A DNA stretch of 64,000 bases, from the NCBI GenBank assembly GCA_021234155.1, contig JAJEKV010000414.1, positions 62,001-126,000 of the forward strand. Reading direction: 5' to 3'. Numbering within the stretch: the stretch's first letter is position 1; each line of letters begins with the position of its first letter. The stretch is from Isoetes taiwanensis. Lineage: Eukaryota > Streptophyta > Lycopodiopsida > Isoetales > Isoetaceae. The notes under the pieces were generated by a model. The model had not been told where the DNA came from, searched no databases, and was given only the letters and a program-made list of their open reading frames with translations. The position numbers were made by a program, and so were the translations under genes. Below, piece after piece: positions 17,345 to 27,330 of the stretch.

Positions 17345-17833
17345 CCATGACTTTATGGGACTTGGCCCGAAGAAATCTTTGGTGCTTTCAAAGATGGAAG
17401 AAGTATTGCAAAAACTCATTTGGACTCAACACCGGGAACACGAGCTCCTAAAGCCAACGGGTTTTTGTGCCTCATCTAATTTTTCCACTTTACAAAGCTT
17501 GTCAACAAGGTCCCTAAATGTTAAAGCCCTAGGAGCAAAACCTTTCTCAACCATCTGCTCACACACATCTACTATCAGATCAGATCTCTCATTCTCACAA
17601 AGAGCAAGAAAGAGAGTATTATAGAAGTGTATTAGCTCACAAAGATCGGGATGCAACTTATGTGAAGCAATAACCTCGAAAAAGCCTTTGACTTCATCCA
17701 ACTTTCCAACTTTACATAGGCCCTTCGGGGAATGAGTTGAATGTTATGTTCTCTCGAGCCATCTTTTTGTAGTAAAGATTTTGCATCATCAACTTGTCTC
17801 AGATCGGCTGATCTATCAATAAGGGACGTGCAT
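17345..17833 (-). pseudogene. PPR protein remnant, downstream part, cut by the CACTA element
   Basis: On the minus strand this reads as pentatricopeptide repeats: KGLCKVGKLDEVKGFFEVIA, then LIHFYNTLFLALCENE, then LVDKLCKVEKLDEAQK. PPR proteins bind organelle RNA. Upstream in the gene (higher coordinates) the frame shifts (MARENITFNSFP in one frame, DVKTCTSLID.SADLR in another). The sequence stops at 17833, where the CACTA element begins, and resumes at 26801. Several frameshifts show the gene had decayed, before or after the insertion. Confidence 0.7.
17831..17833. repeat. Target-site duplication CAT, left copy
   Basis: CAT directly precedes the CACTA terminus and matches CAT at 26801-26803. 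Three-base duplications are the rule for CACTA elements. Confidence 0.75.
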
Positions 17834-17860
17834 CACTACCACCCCAAAACCGGGTCCACA
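17834..17860 (+). repeat. CACTA left terminal inverted repeat
   Basis: The 27-base terminus pairs with the reverse complement of 26774-26800. The first 14 bases (CACTACCACCCCAA) are identical, and GGTCCACA is shared after a four-mismatch gap. Confidence 0.85.
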
Positions 17861-18690
17861 TGTTGTTTTTAGTTGTCTTTTGAAAAAAACAACACAAAAA
17901 ACTATGTGTTGTTTTTTGTGGGATTTGCTAGAAATGACGTGTAGTTTTTAGCAAAATTTTTATACATGTAGTTTTTGTTGCCAAAAGTCTACGCATAGAG
18001 TTTTGTCAAAATTATCTACACGTAGGAATTAACGTATATTTCTACATGTTGTTTTAAAAGTAGCTGTAGTTTTCAAGTGTTGCCTTCTTAAAAAGTAGAC
18101 ATGTGGTTCGTAATACAATTAAAATGTCTACATGTTGTTTTTTAATTGTTGTTTCTTGAAAAAACATTTTTTTTTTTTTTTAAGTAGCTGTAGTTTTCAA
18201 GTGTTGCTTTTATAAAAAGTAGACATGTGGTTCATAATACAATTAAAAGGTCTATATGTTGTTTTTAACTGTTGTTTTGGAAAAAAAGAACACTATGTTT
18301 TTTAAAAATAGCTGTAGTTTTTAAGTGTTGCTTTCCTAAAAAGTAGACATGTGGTTCGTAATAAAACTTGAAAGGTCTATATATTATTTTTTAGTGTTGT
18401 TTTGCAAAAAAACAACACTAAAAACCACATAAAAGATTTTGTCCAACTTTATTAAAACTACACATAGTTTTCGCATTTTTCTTTAGCTATGTTGTTTCTA
18501 AACGTTGCTTTCTTCATAAAATAATACATGGTTTCAAGAAAAGAAAAAAAATGTTTTTTCAAGAATAGTTATTGTTTTAAGTACTTTTTATTATAAAATC
18601 CATATTTTTCAAGTGATTTTGTTTGAATAAAAGACATGGTTAAAAACGTGGTGTTAAAAAAAACATTGATTGCATTTGGTTAAAATCGAT
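17861..18690. repeat. CACTA left subterminal repeat array
   Basis: Dense repeats of GTTGTTTTT and GTAGTTTT motifs. A 124-base unit starts with TAGCTGTAGTTTTCAAGTGTTG at 18061, 18185 and 18309, each followed by AAAAGTAGACATGTGGTTCRTAATA. Subterminal arrays like this are where CACTA-encoded proteins bind in studied elements; binding here is inference. Confidence 0.75.
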
Positions 18691-18879
18691 TATTGCAACC
18701 ATTTTGTTTAGCATACTTTATAGCCTATGATCAAGAGATTATTTTATCATATATTCCATATAGGAAGCTATTAAAATTTATGAACAAAATAGCTTGAAAC
18801 TTTTAATGGCGCCAACCAAACAAATGATATTTAAAATTTATTTATACAAACAACATAGCAAAGCTGATAAGAAGAACGT

Positions 18880-19243
18880 AATGCCCATAGGTTTGAGGGT
18901 ATTTTAATGGAAATGATCATAACTTTTTGTGATGATCCAAATGAGAATGAGCCTTTCAGAGCTATTGTAAGGAGGATGAAATCTTCCCATCAAAAGTAAG
19001 ATCATATAAATCGGAGTCTTAAATCACAAGTTATGCTATTTTTAATACACAAGGAAATTGTAAAAATTTCAGAGGGATTTACGAGACCATAACTTGAGAT
19101 TCCGAATCCGATTCAGGAGATGTTAACTTTCATGGAAAGTTCTCAATCTCTTCTACAATATATCTGATAGACTCATTCTCATTTGGATCATCACAAAAAA
19201 GTTATGATCAATTCCATAAAAATACCCCAAACTAGGGGCATTT
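18880..19243. mobile_element. Foldback MITE nested in the CACTA element
   Basis: The left arm starts AATGCCCATAGG...GGGTATTTTAATGG and runs through GATCATAACTTTTTGTGATG to AATGAGAATGAG near 18955. The right arm, ending at 19243, is its near-perfect reverse complement, giving arms of about 70 bases in a unit of about 364 bases. The interior has no coding potential. I could not define a target duplication, so the superfamily is open. Confidence 0.65.
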
Positions 19244-20272
19244 TGTTAATTTTAGCAAAACGTAAGGGGGTATTTCAGAGTTTTTCCAAAAAAAAAAAAG
19301 GATGGCTATAGCTATGGTAGTCCAGGAAAGAAAATAGTCTGCCCCTGTTCTATTCCAGAGCACGGTTCGTGAAAAATAAAACCATTCTTGTATTTTGGAG
19401 ACAATTAAAGCCTGCAAGAATTCAGAAAATCCCTTGTAAGATAGCCATGGCTGCAAAACTTGCCTTCTGGTTTCCGCAAAAAGCTGGTGGGCTGTTGAAT
19501 TAAGAGAGGAATCTGGTACCCAATCCCCAAATTCCAATGTTATCATAATGCTGCTCGATTTTGATTGAGAAATTCCAATCTGGAGCAGTCTGTATTGTCT
19601 GCTAGAGATTCCAATAAAATCTTAAACAAAAATCTGGATAGACTGCAATAAAAAAAAGCCTGATCATTAGCAAATTATTACAGTTTGCATCCTATTTAAC
19701 GTACTGCAAAAATACAAATCAAAATTCCCTACCGCATCCATTCTGCCAAATCCAAAGATATCCTGGTCTACAGCTACTGCCAGTTTGGAAATCAATGAAT
19801 AACACTCCTCAAACTATGCCATTTCCCAACTATGCCATCATCTGTGCTTCTCATCGACATAATCAGCTTCAGGCAGGTAGAATGACCTCCTTTCCTTTGA
19901 ATCCATCTATTCCATGATCACCATAGCTCTATGCGAGCATTTGCTTGGAGACGAAAACCTATTGCTTTCTAATGAACTGTTCAAGAGCCTCCAACTTCGG
20001 CATATCAACATAGAGCTGAGATTTATATGCATACATGGGCTTTTACATAGCATAATATACTAAAACTGCAGCTCTGATTCCTGAACAGGATGGTGCCAGA
20101 TTACTCTTGGAGGTAGAATGGCATGGTCGGAAGATGGCATGGCCGGAAGTGGCTGGAAGAATGGCATGACCGGAAGTGGAGATCCTAAATAGGAGATAGA
20201 AGCGGGATAGGAGATTGAAGCAAAGAGATAATATCAGATATGAGCATCAAATGAAAACCCTATTACAGAAAC
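19244..20272. other. CACTA interior, no gene recognised
   Basis: A minus-strand frame at 19232-19546 is open but has no family resemblance. Near 20110-20185 there is a short tandem-like repeat (GGCATGGYCGGAAGTGG / GGCATGACCGGAAGTGG). GGAGATAGAAGCGGGATAGG at about 20191 resembles AGCGGGAAAGGAGATAGAAG at about 20599, so similar sequence flanks the PsbQ-like exon. Confidence 0.4.
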
Positions 20273-20560
20273 AGAAGGGGGCGGGGGGCCTTTAATCACG
20301 ATATCAGTATTGGCAGATGAAGATTGAACGGCGGAACCGACAGCCACAGCGGCGGCAAGAAGCCCTAACATGGATCTGCGGCCCTGAAAAGCTTCATCTC
20401 CGGTAGATGCCGAAGCTCTGATCATGGCAGGAATGCGATGGGCAGAAGGGGCGCTCTTTTGGGGCAAAGAAGATCCCAGGATTCCCGATCTACGGCCATC
20501 AAGAATGGCGTTGGAAGCTCCACACAGTGCTGCCATGGATGTTCCGACTGCCTGTGCCAT
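20273..20560 (-). pseudogene. First exon of a PsbQ-like photosystem II gene, captured fragment
   Basis: PsbQ is the 16-17 kDa extrinsic subunit of the oxygen-evolving complex on the lumen side of the thylakoid. From an ATG at 20560 the minus frame gives 96 codons: a plastid transit peptide (MAQAVGTSMAALCGASNAIL...), a twin-arginine RRSMLGLLAAAVAVG thylakoid signal, an SANT processing region, then DIVIKGPPPPS. The end matches the start of mature PsbQ (IVVGPPPPLSGGLPGT). A GT donor follows in phase 0 at 20272-20271, exactly where the next codon should be Gly. No later PsbQ exon lies downstream on this strand within the element, so this is an isolated exon, probably carried by the CACTA transposon. 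Further upstream is GC-richer sequence with CCTATTGGCC (CCAAT-type) near 20680, so part of the promoter may have come along. Confidence 0.7.
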
Positions 20561-21225
20561 CGCCACTCCTCTGTTCTCTATTCTGTTGCATTCTGTTTAG
20601 AAGCGGGAAAGGAGATAGAAGGGGGAAAGAGGCAGCATCAGATCTGGGCAGTTAATCTCCACCGTCAATCTAGGCCAATAGGATCCCAGGACATGGATCA
20701 CCATCTCAGCCGCTCATTTCAGCGGTTGGATTGATACAATTTTATCATGCATATTTTGATAGTTTATACCCTATTTTGGTAGTTTTCTTTTGTTAAATTT
20801 CATCATTCACAAAGCTCTATGGTTTTTAGGCTCTAGATTATACCGTATAACTTTTGAGCGATGTATATACTGGCCACCGTCACGTCATCTCATGCCCCCC
20901 ATCCCATGATGCCTTTTTTTCCATGGGGCATCGATGATGACCCCATTCAAACTATATTTTTTACGTGACCATATTTCATTCTTAAAATAAATCATGCATT
21001 TTTATCACTCTAGTGGCCATGATTCAAAATCCCCACTACCTCTATCTAGATAATTTGTCATTGTATGTCATGCTCCACCGGGTTTTGCAAATAAGCTAAT
21101 GAGTATTTGTCCGATTTTTGTATAGAAACTCAAACCCTACCGGTTTCTTTGTGGGCAACAAAAGCTTCGAAACACAAAACGAAGATTCCAACTTAAATTA
21201 AGGACACTAACACCCTATTTTTATG

Positions 21226-21862
21226 CCTGCTAATGGCATGTTTGAGCCACGTCACATATTTGAGTCTATGTGGCATGTTTGAGCCACGTGTCATGTTTGA
21301 GCCTAGGGTATGTTTGAGATGCATGTCACATTTGAGTCCATGTGGCATGTTTGAGCAAAGGTGGCATGTTTGTGCCACATCTCATGTTTGAGCCGAGGGT
21401 GGCATGTTCTAGCCCTAGGGGCATGTTTGACACAACATTTCAATTATCAAAAAAAACATACCAAAAAAAAAAAAAAGGGAAAAAAAAGATATCATTTGAA
21501 AGAGCATTTTTTTATGACCTTAATGGCATGTTTTAGCCTAGGGACATGTTTGAGCCTAGGTGGCATGTTTGAAACTAGAGCATGTTTGACCCTAGGGGGC
21601 AATACTTGAGCCTAGGTGGCATATTTGAGCCTATGTGGCATGTTTGAGCGAAGTGATTGAGACTATGTGGTATGTTTGAGCCTAGGGGCATGTTCGACCC
21701 TAGGGCAATGCTTGAACCTATGTGGCATGTTTGAGACGAGGTGTTTAAGTATATGTGGCATGTTTGAGACTATATGGTATGTTTGAGCCAACATCGCATG
21801 TTTGAGCCACGTGGCATGTTTGAACATAGGGGCATGCTTGAGCCTAGGAGCACAACATTTCA
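21226..21862. repeat. Minisatellite block A, 19-bp unit, diverged
   Basis: Diverged copies of GGCATGTTTGAGCC followed by five variable bases. The array is interrupted by a unique A-rich stretch at about 21430-21520. Unit length drifts, but GCATGTTTGAG recurs throughout. Confidence 0.75.
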
Positions 21863-22830
21863 ACCATAAAAACTAGCGGTGAAGGACTTGGGGCAAGGGA
21901 TTGGAAAAGTGTAAAGGATGAAGCTCTTCTTGAAGAAAAAATATGCACGTGCCATAAATTTAATCTTGGATGTAGGTACCCTTTGGATTTGAGTTTGTGG
22001 ATTAGAATCAATGTTGGAGAGGAAAATGATGTAGAAAGGCACTTAAAAGGGGCATGATTGGCATTCTAGTTGTACCAATTTATTTCTAATGCATGGATAA
22101 GTAACCATTTGTTTCTAATACATGGATATGACAAAATTATTTCTCACCTATTAGCATAGGACATTAATAAGGATCTGAAGGTGACAAATAGGCTTCTTAG
22201 GATTGATAGTCAATCATGAATTTCAAAGAATTCATTACAACAACGGAAATTTGAACCTTCCATGCATTACCTTACATAAGGTATCTAGATTCGGAGAATA
22301 TTGTTTCTTCTTTGGTGCCACCTTGTCTTCCAAAGTCGCCTCTAAAATTTGTACTCTGAATTTTCTTTTGAGCATGCTTTATCTAGTGTGAAAAGTGGTT
22401 TCTAATAACCATATAAAACCAAATTAACAAAACATATTCAATTTCCATTTTGCTTCCTTTCTTTTTGCAAATGGCCAAATTCCATATTATCTCAACATTA
22501 ATCATTCGAAAAATCCTTGGGATGAAAGAATGAATTTTATTAAGCATTTTATTATGAATCATAATGCGAGAAAATGAAACTACTTTAAATGAAATAATAG
22601 TATCATCTCAACTTTAGTTCCACAGCTTGTTTGTAAGGAAATAAATATAGAAAGAAAGGATATGTTCTTACTATAATCTACATTGTGTTGAATTTTCACC
22701 GGTGTGGATGAGAAGTATTATTTAAAACAAGTAAGCATAAAGCGTGCGGTGCGAGAAAATGTCACCATCCCAACATTGTGTAAATTAAGTGGGATGCAGC
22801 ATGGACCACTACCACTCGTCCCATAATCCC
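21863..22830. other. CACTA interior, non-coding
   Basis: AT-rich sequence with no recognised gene or repeat. Confidence 0.35.
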
Positions 22831-23125
22831 TGTTTATTTTCTCCTTCTGACCAAGAACATCTCCTGATCTTGGAAGAGTAATAGTTTCACCGAGCCGACA
22901 ACAACAATTTTGTTAGTAGCCTCTTTTTCGCCAACATGAATGCCACGAGGAGAAATACCGGACTTCTTTGCTTGTAGGTTGACATAGCCTCCATAGCCCT
23001 AAACAAAAGCGGGGCCTTCTACAAGGATCTTCACTCGATCCGGAAGAAAGGAAGAAAGCGCAAAATTGAACCTGCTCAAAGCAGGGTCCTTGAACAGTGG
23101 ATTCAATGGTTGGATAGGAAAATCG
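22831..23125 (-). pseudogene. Second coding-like fragment inside the CACTA element, family unknown
   Basis: The minus frame reads PIQPLNPLFKDPALSRFNFA, then FLPDRVKILVEGPAFV, one TAG, then GYGGYVNLQAKKSGISPRG and EKEATNKIVVVG. Composition and length without stops (apart from one) look like a real protein rather than AT-rich chance. I do not recognise the family. The stop falls in GTTTAGGGC, which could instead be an intron acceptor. A captured host-gene piece is the likeliest explanation given its position. Confidence 0.4.
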
Positions 23126-23212
23126 AGCTCCAGGAGGGGTTGCATTAGCATCTGACCTCGGCGGAGGAGTGCCGCAAGGAAAGGCTACCTTGAGAACATT
23201 TTTGTTGGAACT

Positions 23213-23520
23213 GCGTGGCATGTTTGAGCCACCTTGGCATGTTTGAGACTAGGTCGCGTGTGGAGCTGTGTGGCATTTTGGAGCCTAGGTGGCATGTTTG
23301 AGCCGCCTTAGCATATTGGAGGCTAGGTGGCATGTTGGAGCCATCTTGGCATGTTGAAGCCGTGGCATGTTTGAGCCATCTTGGCATGTTGGAGTTCACA
23401 TTGGCATGTTTGAGCCACCTTGGCATGTTGGAGCCTAGGTGGCATGGGTGGAGGCCCACGTGTCATGTTTGTGCCACCTTGGCATGTTGGCGCCTAGGCG
23501 GCATGTTGGGCCCGTGTCTA
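23213..23520. repeat. Minisatellite block B, 19-bp unit
   Basis: About fifteen copies of the same 19-base unit as the larger array, alternating TTTGAGCCACCTTGGCATG and TTGGAGCCTAGGTGGCATG types. The block starts abruptly after the coding-like fragment. Confidence 0.8.
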
Positions 23521-24781
23521 TACCTTTAATTGAATATAAATCTTGTGTCTTATACACCTCTCACGAATGTCGAGGAATAAGTATGTGTCTAAGACACTAT
23601 GCTTACACAACTATATAAGATAGTGTGTTCACACATTTGTCACTTGAGTTGGGTGACATACTTGGTCTAATGCTTTACAATAAGCTGCTTCTTGAAAAGT
23701 ACAAGATCATGAAAATTTTGAACCTGTTGTAGAAACAGATTAACCTTAGATGGCTATAGTCCATGCTTCAACACATGTGTCTCCCTTAGACTTAGAAAGC
23801 TACATGGTGAATACTTTAAGAAGATGGTTATGCTTTGTCTTCAATGGATGAGACAGAGAGCCATTGATGCATAACATCTAACTCTCCCTTATGGGTGGTT
23901 AAAGAATAGTATGATCGGTTTGATCTTGAGCATAGTTAAACTCTTGACATCCACTTTATGGTCCGATAAACCTTTTACAGGTTATACTGATTTTAGAGTT
24001 TGAATGTCTACTCATCATAATCCATAGGGATCCATATTGCAAGGTAAGGAAAAAAGCGACTTTTTTCTTGAGCTTTGTCTCCACAAATATAAAACCAAGG
24101 TTACTATACCAATGGGAGACTTGACATGAGTTTTATGAACATGTACACTATCTGGCGCTTATTTTAGTTTATTGTTGGACAACCAAAAAAAAATGCATTC
24201 TACATGGCGATTATTGCAGACCACCTCTTAGGCCAATCGACTACTTAATGAGTTGGACATGAGCTACTTTGGCGCTTCTTGGAGAAGGGTGGTCTTACGC
24301 CCACGAAATTTGGTCATCAGGGTAATGTCGATGTTCGAGTCCATTGGCGAGGCAAATTATAGTTCCGGTGGGAGAGTACGCTCATTTGTGACCGGGGTTG
24401 CTCGTCCATGGCTAGGGGTCTTCGGGGAGAGGACCTTTGGGGCTTAGCCGCTTTCGGAAGGTTTAAGGGTCCATCTTCTAGCATCAATGCCCTCCTCTAT
24501 GTGATGATATTATGCAAGATCTTGGTCGAATCGACTAGGATATAGCCTCCAAAATGTAAACCACATTGTGTGTTGCTAGCTTGTTGAAGAGTTTATGTTA
24601 TGGAGGTCGAGTTTTGGTCGGTTGCACTTGGGATATAGTCGAGACGCTGCTGGTGAAAACACAAAGTAATAGTAGCATGTTATAATGAGAAGTATCTACA
24701 TATTATAGAGACACTTCTCATGATCAAACTATAATTTTATCTTTTGCACATAATATTAGCCCCTATTCGGACTGGGTGTCG
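23521..24781. other. CACTA interior between minisatellite blocks
   Basis: A plus frame at 24253-24447 and a neighbouring frame (LEKGGLTPTKFGHQGNVDV) near 24280-24420 are weakly coding-like. No family is recognised. Confidence 0.35.
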
Positions 24782-25925
24782 GTTTGAACCACCTTGGCAT
24801 GTTTGAGCCACCATGGCATGTTTGAGCCACCTTGGCATGTTGGAGCCTAGGTGGCATGTTGGAGCGTGGAATGTTTGAGCTACCTTGGCATGTTTGAGCC
24901 TAGGTGACATGTTGGAGCCTAGGTGGCACGTTTGAGCCACCTTGGCATGTTGGAGCCTAGGTAGCATGTTGGAGCCCACATGGCATGTTTGAGCCACCTT
25001 TGCATGTTGGATCCTAGGTGGCATGTTGGAGCCTAGCTGGCATGTTTGAGAACCTTGGCATGTTGGGCCCACAAGTGGCATGTTTGAGCCACCTTGGCAT
25101 GTCCGAGCCACCTTGGCATCTTTGGAGCCTAGGTGGCATGTTTGAGCCACTTTGGCATGTTTGAGCCACCTTGGAATGTTGGAGCCTAGGTGGCATGTTG
25201 AGCCCACGTGGCATGTTTGAGCCACCTTGGCATGTTGGAGCCTAGGTGGCATGTAGGAGCCCCGCATGGCATGTGAGCCACCTTAGCATATTGGAGCCCG
25301 TGGCATGTTTGAGACACCTTGGCATGTTTGAGCCTAGGTGGCATGTTGGAGCATAGGTGGCATGTAGGAGCCCGTGGCATGTTTGAGCCACCTTAGCATA
25401 TTGGAGCCCATGTGGCATGTTTGAGACACCTTGGCATGTTTGAGCCTAGGTGGCATGTTGGAGCCTAGGTGGCATGTTTGAGCCACCTAGGCATTGGAGC
25501 CTAGATGGCATGTTGGGAATCCACGTTTTGAGACACCTTGGCAAGTTGGAGCCTAGGTGGCATGTTGGAGCCACATGGCATGTTTGAGCCACCTTGACAT
25601 GTTGGAGCCTAGGTGGCATGAAGCCCACGTGGCATGTTTGAGCCACCTTGACATGTTTGAGCCTAGGTGTCATGTTGGAGCCTAGGTGGCATGTTTGAGG
25701 CACGTTGGCATGTTGGAACCTAGGTGGCATATTGGAGCCCATGTGGCATGTTGGAGCCTATAGGTGGCATATAGGAGCCCGCATGGCATGTTTGAGCCAC
25801 CTTGGCATGTTTGAGCCTAGGTGGCATGTTGGTGCCTAGGTGGTATACTTGAGCCACCTTGGCATGTTGAACCCTAGGGTGGCATGTTGGAGCCCACATG
25901 GCATGTTTGAGCCACCTTGGATCTA
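24782..25925. repeat. Minisatellite block C, main 19-bp array
   Basis: About 1.1 kb of a 19-base unit in two alternating versions, GGCATGTTTGAGCCACCTT and GGCATGTTGGAGCCTAGGT, giving a 38-base higher-order period, roughly 55-60 units. Because 19 is not a multiple of three, the minus strand cycles through all phases and reads as a 19-residue peptide repeat (MPPRLQHAKVAQTCHVGSN). This explains an apparent 176-codon frame at 24737-25267 and several others. It is not a real gene. Confidence 0.9.
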
Positions 25926-25989
25926 ACCGTTGAAGGTATATTTCACGAATGTAAAACAATACGATACATTCCCAAACGAGAAAGACAAA

Positions 25990-26770
25990 CAATATTCCGT
26001 GGTGGTGCTTTGCTTAAGAAATAGCCTCAAAAAACCAAAAAAAACCATACTTCCTTAAGAAATAGCAACGAAGTTATAAACCACACCACTTAAAACCACA
26101 CTTCTTTAAAAATAGCCACTTAAAACCACACCTCAAAACCATACTTACTTTAAAAATAGGTAATTTAAGAACTACACCTAGTTATATAAACCACACCTTA
26201 AAAAAATCATACTTCCTTAAAATAACTTCTTAAAAACTACATCTAGTTATAAACTACACCACTTCAAAAAACCATACTTCATTAAAAAACAACCACTTAA
26301 AAACTACACTAAACATAAACCACACTTCAAAAAGAACCATACTTCTTTAAAAACAATTTATTTAAAACTACACCCACTTATAAATGACACCTCAAAAACA
26401 ACACCTTAATTAAAAATCACACCAACGAAAACCATACTTCATTTAAAAACAACCACTTAAAAACTACACCTCCTTATAAACCATACTTCAAAAACTATAC
26501 TTCCATAAAAACAACTACTTAAAACTACACCTAGTTATAAACTACACCTCAAAAAACAACACCTTCTTAAAAACAACACCCCCTCAAAAAAAAGCAACAC
26601 TTCTTTTAAAAAAAACGACACCTCAAAAAAAGACCACACCTTCAAAAAAAAAAGAAACTATAGCTCCGTAAAAAAAACTACACCGCCTCCTTAATAAACC
26701 ACACCTCCACATAACCACATGTAGATTTTTTGGAACAACGACATGTGGTCTTCTTATTACTGTTGTTTTT
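25990..26770. repeat. CACTA right subterminal repeat array
   Basis: An A/C-rich array of AAAACCACAC, AAAACTACACC and ACTTC.TTAAAAA motifs in irregular units of about 60-70 bases. AAAACTACAC is the reverse complement of the GTGTAGTTTT motif in the left array, so the two arrays are in inverted orientation as expected for CACTA ends. Confidence 0.75.
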
Positions 26771-26773
26771 AGG

Positions 26774-26800
26774 TGTGGACCTAGAATTGGGGTGGTAGTG
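26774..26800 (-). repeat. CACTA right terminal inverted repeat
   Basis: Reverse complement starts CACTACCACCCCAATTCTAGG and matches the left terminus at about 23 of 27 positions. Confidence 0.85.
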
Positions 26801-26803
26801 CAT
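26801..26803. repeat. Target-site duplication CAT, right copy
   Basis: CAT immediately follows the right terminus and matches 17831-17833. Confidence 0.75.
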
Positions 26804-26920
26804 GTTTTGACATCTTGTGGAACATTATATTGCCTTGAGGCCCTTAGTCATGGCCATTAAGAAATAATTCAAAAGCTCATTCATCCGAGAGCATCACTCT
26901 ATGCGATTGCAACCAAAAAT
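26801..26920 (-). pseudogene. PPR protein remnant, upstream part
   Basis: The minus strand reads MNELLNYFLMAMTKGLKA, then after a small frameshift YNVPQDVK, which joins across the collapsed CAT duplication to TCTSLIDRSADLRQVDD on the far side of the CACTA element. It is the 5'-side continuation of the PPR remnant at 17345-17833. Confidence 0.6.
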
Positions 26921-27330
26921 TCAAAGCAAAATGGAGGTACATAACTTCCGGATAATTATGCACACTTCAATAAATGTTGTAATCTATCAAACCAAATTGG
27001 CTTTTCAACTAATAAGAATTTCTAGGAAGAAAATGGCTTACCGGATAAATATCCAATGCCTCAATCTCATTTACCTTCTTAAGATCGAGGCAAAACTAAG
27101 GGTTGCTGTGAAAAGTAAGTGGTTCTTGGTTGAAGCTCCTCTTCATCACGTAAAATACCCTTTAGCCATTTGTTTAAAAGGAAATTTAATAGCTAAACCT
27201 TATAAAAGCAATAGCTAGGACTGATATGCCCGACAACATAAGTTACACGCCATATAACAATGAATTGTCTCTACCGGGAAAAACAATTCTTACGGATTAA
27301 GCAAGTCTATGACATTTCGAGGGTTTTTCG
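26921..27330. other. No feature seen
   Basis: A 105-codon plus frame at 26901-27218 has no family resemblance. Nothing else is recognised. Confidence 0.35.

Follow-up and report, generated by a model that had tools for sequence, protein, structure and literature searches.

A putative Pack-CACTA element of Isoetes taiwanensis carrying a PsbQ targeting exon that has lost its native splice donor

Within a stretch of 64,000 nucleotides from the lycophyte Isoetes taiwanensis (G000:C125:62001-126000; GCA_021234155.1, contig JAJEKV010000414.1), which is called the window throughout, lies a CACTA transposable element that holds most of the first exon of the photosystem II gene PsbQ. The original prediction, made from the letters of the window, described a CACTA element that had captured a PsbQ targeting exon, and our analysis supports this description. 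The interpretation that fits best is a Pack-CACTA whose passenger exon no longer has its native splice donor. We consider it likely that an existing non-autonomous CACTA element was gap-filled with PsbQ DNA by template switching, that the donor was lost, that the block holding the exon was later exchanged between elements and that the exon is a passenger. The window belongs to a small contig (C125, 222,832 bp) in a genome assembly of 1.66 Gb and 1110 contigs, in which a plant PsbQ gene is present. The features of the element are collected in Table 1.

The PsbQ piece and its parent gene

A profile search of the genome for PsbQ returned four stretches, namely three exons at C1054:7240971-7242035 and the copy in the window. 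The three-exon gene at G000:C1054 is the one complete PsbQ gene found, and when its exons are joined, they match the PsbQ profile in full (E 4.5e-67, positions 5-204 of 204); we refer to it as the parent. The parent protein matches a solved plant PsbQ; alignment of the mature chain (1nze) begins at query residue 87, which places the targeting portion and the start of the mature protein in exon 1. Since exon 1 of the parent is 298 bp long, its donor, CTCC/GTAAGT (the slash marks the splice point), is in phase 1.

The copy in the window reaches E 5.2e-8 against the Pfam PsbQ profile at positions 4-71 of 204, and does not amount to a full-length lumenal domain (PF05757). It had been described as a clean 96-codon exon; its identity as PsbQ exon 1 stands, whereas the exon has 95 codons, runs on the minus strand and retains 285 of 298 bp, the final 11-13 bp being gone. 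Over the 95 codons it is 96% identical to the parent, with 7 nucleotide differences in 285 nt, of which 4 alter an amino acid and 3 are silent. A 29-bp deletion has taken the end of exon 1 together with the native donor, fusing the coding sequence straight to intron sequence, and the open frame runs on to a stop ending at 20234, giving 108 amino acids from the ATG at 20560. The phase-0 donor of the original prediction is thus not a donor of PsbQ: the native phase-1 site is deleted, and TCT/GTTTCT after codon 96, which was presumably taken for it, is the deletion junction. Flanking the exon, the piece also contains 37-41 bp of the 5' leader and, on the other side, some 50 bp of intron 1; because intron sequence is present, the piece was copied at the DNA level.

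Alignment to the parent shows that the DNA upstream of the 5' leader is absent from the copy, and in the element, the upstream side of the exon is matched in relatives without PsbQ and in other repeats (best 40 of 347 candidates). The suggestion that promoter sequence might travel with the exon therefore fails, the upstream DNA being repeat DNA common to those relatives with no PsbQ promoter copied. These results bear on the proposal that the element is a mobile targeting exon, which could make new lumen-targeted proteins by onward splicing or yield a lumen-targeted micropeptide of 108 amino acids. The frame is open and its targeting region is still 96% identical to that of the parent, which speaks for it; against it are the deleted native donor, the missing parent promoter and the repeat DNA in its place. 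The frame of a second copy (on C1018, described below) is moreover broken as assembled, which may be a consensus error. The 7 differences over 285 nt are too few to reveal selection in either direction. Nothing was found in support of new lumen-targeted proteins, and we regard this proposal as very improbable. We take the PsbQ exon to be a probable passenger.

As originally claimed, no later PsbQ exon occurs in the element: by profile, exons 2 and 3 are found at C1054 only. The intron sequence in the piece would suit a segmental duplicate of the entire PsbQ gene, degraded and later invaded by repeats. This reading is already contradicted by the sharp junctions on both sides, which are the same in two elements at different places, and every full-strength match to exons 2 and 3 in the profile and DNA searches falls at the parent; we give it next to no credence. 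Exon 2 has ten weak matches in the genome (72-75%), all to one 100-bp stretch. The four such loci examined (L036-L039) make up one repeat family, which resembles PsbQ exon 2 at 75-78% over a stretch of 99-105 bp in its DNA and is without a protein-level match, and we rejected these matches as PsbQ pieces.

Relatives with and without the PsbQ piece

Among other CACTA copies with the same cargo, one second element was found, at C1018:43.47 Mb, which carries the same PsbQ piece, with the deletion in the same position. Five sites in four related loci (C395, C981, C1041 and, twice, C225) have both flanks but no PsbQ between them, and no exon 16-mer occurs in the compared stretches of these loci. 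In C395 and C981 a tandem repeat runs through the site, with copies 81 bp and 105 bp apart, respectively, and the filled copies lack 53 bp (relative to C395) and 80 bp (relative to C981) of this repeat. A looser tandem repeat, 73 bp apart, is seen in C1041 and C225a. Comparison of the parent with the unfilled element reveals microhomology at both junctions, AGAG or GAAGC on the left and TAGA on the right. Because unfilled relatives exist and at least 4 bp of microhomology is found at both junctions, the evidence favours template-switch repair inside an existing element as the probable route of capture.

The history that we consider likely would run as follows. A non-autonomous CACTA element with older cargo would have been in place first, its transposase presumably supplied from elsewhere. 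A break or stalled fork inside the tandemly repeated stretch of one copy of the element would then have left a gap that was filled with about 400 bp copied from the PsbQ locus, the switches being guided, to judge from the junctions, by AGAG or GAAGC on one side and TAGA on the other. The 29-bp deletion that removed the native donor would have taken place during or after capture, and gene conversion or recombination would probably have transferred the PsbQ-bearing 1.7-kb block between two elements later on, as their uneven divergence suggests.

In 100,000 simulated random junction pairs, microhomology of at least 4 bp arose at frequencies of 0.019 and 0.020 when each junction is taken alone and of 0.00031 (31/100,000) when both are required, with the caveat that the 4-bp threshold was chosen after the junctions had been inspected. 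This caveat is one of several points that weigh against the template-switch history. At the site, divergence is greater in C1041 and C225, and none of the exact repeat words searched is present in C225b. Two further loci are uninformative, the site being deleted in C1018:40.35 Mb and homology being absent there in C1040. The case is a single capture with two descendants, and the mechanism rests on two ambiguous junctions. Loss of PsbQ from the unfilled relatives has also to be considered, and is less parsimonious than gain. Finally, PF02992 (Transposase_21) has at least 167 matches in the genome, counted from the best 150 of 2312 candidates, and none of these is tied to the termini of the element.

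A different route to the same structure is tandem insertion, in which two elements flank PsbQ exon 1, suffer complementary terminal deletions and move as one hybrid; this is the mechanism proposed for Pack-CACTA and other Pack-TYPE elements (PMC13317346, PMC8903248). On the unfilled relatives, however, the flanks of the piece are only 53 bp (C395) or 80 bp (C981) apart, so that in elements some 9 kb long a pair of deletions, each arising independently, would have to end at nearly the same point by coincidence. We therefore judge tandem insertion unlikely here.

Exchange between the two PsbQ-bearing elements

Between the window and C1018:43.47 Mb, positions 19290-21035 minus 20247-20456 differ by 7 substitutions in 1534 aligned bases, whereas the other aligned parts of the same two elements differ by 30/979, 19/453, 46/1203 and 58/897, that is, 0.5% in the block as against 3-6% elsewhere. 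Fisher's test gives p = 2e-7 for the block against the first of these parts and 1e-10 against the third. This contrast suggests that a block of about 1.7 kb was probably exchanged or converted between the elements recently.

Inside 20247-20456, where 201 bases align, the C1018 copy departs from the window by 30 substitutions and 6 gap events. Of the CAG/CTG and CCG/CGG sites, 17 of 21 are altered inside this interval and 2 of 75 outside (Fisher-tested); for the other trinucleotides counted (CAA, CAT, AAG, GAT and complements), the figures are 4 of 35 inside and 5 of 265 outside. These clustered CHG-site changes fall at about 3550-3760 of L009 (G000:C1018:43464700-43474699), where CAG often reads CGT. 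Cytosine deamination was rejected as their cause, since changes of the CAG to CGT type do not fit it; our best guess is a base-modification-dependent consensus error, and if so, the broken frame there is no evidence of decay. Beside the PsbQ block, the second element is also interrupted by some 760 bp of inserted DNA with TTATCTTATC repeats at its end (L002:2305-3065), which we take to be a putative non-LTR retroelement from its look.

Borders and CACTA identity

The borders proved as precise as originally described. The inverted termini (CACTACCACCCCAA) are identical at 14/14 bases and are followed by a further 8-base match (GGTCCACA), and a 3-bp target-site duplication, CAT/CAT, stands on the two flanks of the element. 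The subterminal motif TGTAGTTT is present in 5 copies on the plus strand at the left and 8 on the minus strand at the right, with 1 (left) and 0 (right) in the opposite senses, and a motif count across the element found no copies in its middle. The two ends have 84 inverted versus 45 direct 7-mers in common and 58 inverted versus 29 direct 8-mers, TGTAGTTT leading among the latter. When the flanks are joined, they match five places in the genome across the join at 85-86% (C1077, C295, C1018:39.55 Mb, C1094 and C1054:0.17 Mb). The two such paralogous sites that were aligned in the correct orientation (L040 and L042) read GACGTGCATGTTTTGAC. Because these sites are without the element and carry a single CAT, the element is an insertion.

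The termini belong to a large repeat family, and are thus not absent from the repeats of the genome: the left 567 bp are matched at 40/40 scored places, these being the best 40 of 646 first-look candidates with the window included. Inverted CACTA termini, a 3-bp duplication, inverted subterminal repeats and a genomic family with matching ends together place the element in the CACTA superfamily (DTC). The flanks themselves (17574-17833 and 26804-27063) belong to a repeat of which the genome has at least five paralogues. The reverse strand of this flanking repeat resembles a PPR-type protein by eye, and no open reading frame (ORF) of 90 amino acids spans the repeat in the paralogous site L041.

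Table 1. Features of the element, in positions of the window
Feature	Positions	Strand	Basis
CACTA element, non-autonomous, 8967 bp	17834..26800		14/14 inverted terminal match, CAT duplication, paralogous empty sites
Left terminal inverted repeat, CACTACCACCCCAA..GGTCCACA	17834..17861	+	End comparison
Right terminal inverted repeat	26773..26800	-	End comparison
CAT target-site duplication, left	17831..17833		Single CAT in empty sites L040, L042
CAT target-site duplication, right	26801..26803		CAT/CAT
Left subterminal array, 3 x 124 bp	18046..18420	+	k-mers common with reverse strand of right end
Right subterminal array, degenerate AAACTACACC repeats	26078..26652	-	Repeat and k-mer analysis
19/57-bp tandem array, GTTTGAGCCACCTTGGCAT type	24782..25920		Repeat analysis
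Block nearly identical to second element C1018:43.47 Mb	19290..21050		Low divergence versus other aligned parts
Captured PsbQ segment, comprising 5' leader, exon 1 as far as codon 95 and the beginning of intron 1 (edges ambiguous within the microhomology at the switch points)	20224..20601	-	Aligned to G000:C1054:7241688-7242094 and relatives without the piece
95-codon coding part of PsbQ exon 1, with transit peptide, thylakoid transfer domain and start of the mature protein	20276..20560	-	ORF, Pfam, parent alignment
Junction of 29-bp deletion (exon 1 end and native donor)	20273..20277	-	Parent alignment

Transposase and other cargo

No transposase match was found among the 8 ORFs scanned with Pfam out of 27 in the window of at least 50 amino acids. 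Among the scanned ORFs, PsbQ alone reached the Pfam cut-off, a SecG match being far below it (E 0.4). We read the element as probably non-autonomous; degraded pieces of a transposase could remain. Seven ORFs of related loci, scanned for other cargo, gave two hits, both from the locus at C1018:40.35 Mb (L025:6661-7782): a weak PPR match below the cut-off, in a frame joined to the common cargo, and a fragment of reverse transcriptase. Members of the element family thus differ in cargo.

Other exon-1 copies in the genome

A DNA search of the genome with exon 1 gave at least 42 matches, with the best 40 of 122 candidates scored. By query range and identity, we provisionally assign 12 of these matches to a family B and 14 to a family C. 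The 8 of 12 family B members examined (C1105, C223, C908, C889, C921, C944, C1056:8.78 Mb and C1100; loci L004 and L010-L016) are 83-86% identical to the parent, and the 6 of 14 family C members examined (C1102, C1061, C952, C919, C734 and C1044; loci L017, L018 and L032-L035) are 98-99% identical over 85-91 bp. Flanking DNA is common to the examined members within family B and within family C, and the examined members of both match the CACTA element in the PsbQ piece alone (C1100 was compared with 19290-21050 only). The right end of family B extends to TATAAGAT, and its locus L016 also aligned to intron 1. In family C, the exon-1 piece adjoins other repeat DNA; C1061 has a 37-bp piece of intron 1 that is missing from the window copy, and a search for CACTA ends of the chosen pattern found none in the six loci except three chance-like words.

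The simplest reading of these alignments is that exon 1 was probably captured at least three times, as opposed to having passed through a shared intermediate. Exon 1 has a GC content of 57% as against 38% for the window, and Pack-MULEs and multicopy Pack-TIRs, as distinct from single-copy ones, tend to take GC-rich DNA according to PMC8277862. A broader proposal, which we hold tentatively and at somewhat less than even chance, is that the GC-rich exon 1 of PsbQ is a recurrent target (captured at least three times, by unrelated repeats) and that the CACTA family acquires DNA at its internal tandem repeat by microhomology-guided switching, as a plant counterpart of gap filling.

Comparison with known systems

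How CACTA elements acquire host DNA is an unsettled question. Among the best matches in the open-licence PMC literature, none reported a captured PsbQ exon by title or abstract opening. A promising "mobile targeting exon" can, as here, prove donor-less on close reading.

Close counterparts are the Pack-CACTA elements of Arabidopsis and other plants (PMC8903248, PMC13317346), which are likewise non-autonomous, have CACTA termini and contain host coding DNA copied from elsewhere. The present element carries host gene DNA, has an intact parent at C1054 and shows no transposase in the ORFs scanned. The difference lies in the route of acquisition, since those elements are attributed to fusion of neighbouring insertions, whereas here the comparison of filled and unfilled relatives suggests that DNA was filled in at a tandem repeat inside the element. 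Tgm-Express1 of soybean is also a CACTA element with host gene fragments that keep exon and intron sequence (PMC1947982). Its fragments are spliced into chimeric RNAs, whereas the present piece has lost its native donor.

Animal Pack-TIRs, for which gap filling or FoSTeST is proposed, resemble our case in breakpoint microhomology and in capture inside a pre-existing element, according to PMC8277862, which also calls an extension of gap-filling capture to plant Pack-MULEs worth exploring. In contrast, ours is a plant CACTA element in which capture took place at an internal tandem repeat, and the parent lies on another contig. Capture of a host gene piece by a CACTA element is a known kind of event; in the present case, PsbQ-less relatives show the entry point and hint at how the piece came in. 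Related elements with and without the same exon, together with a surviving parent, provide junctions on which models of capture can be tested.

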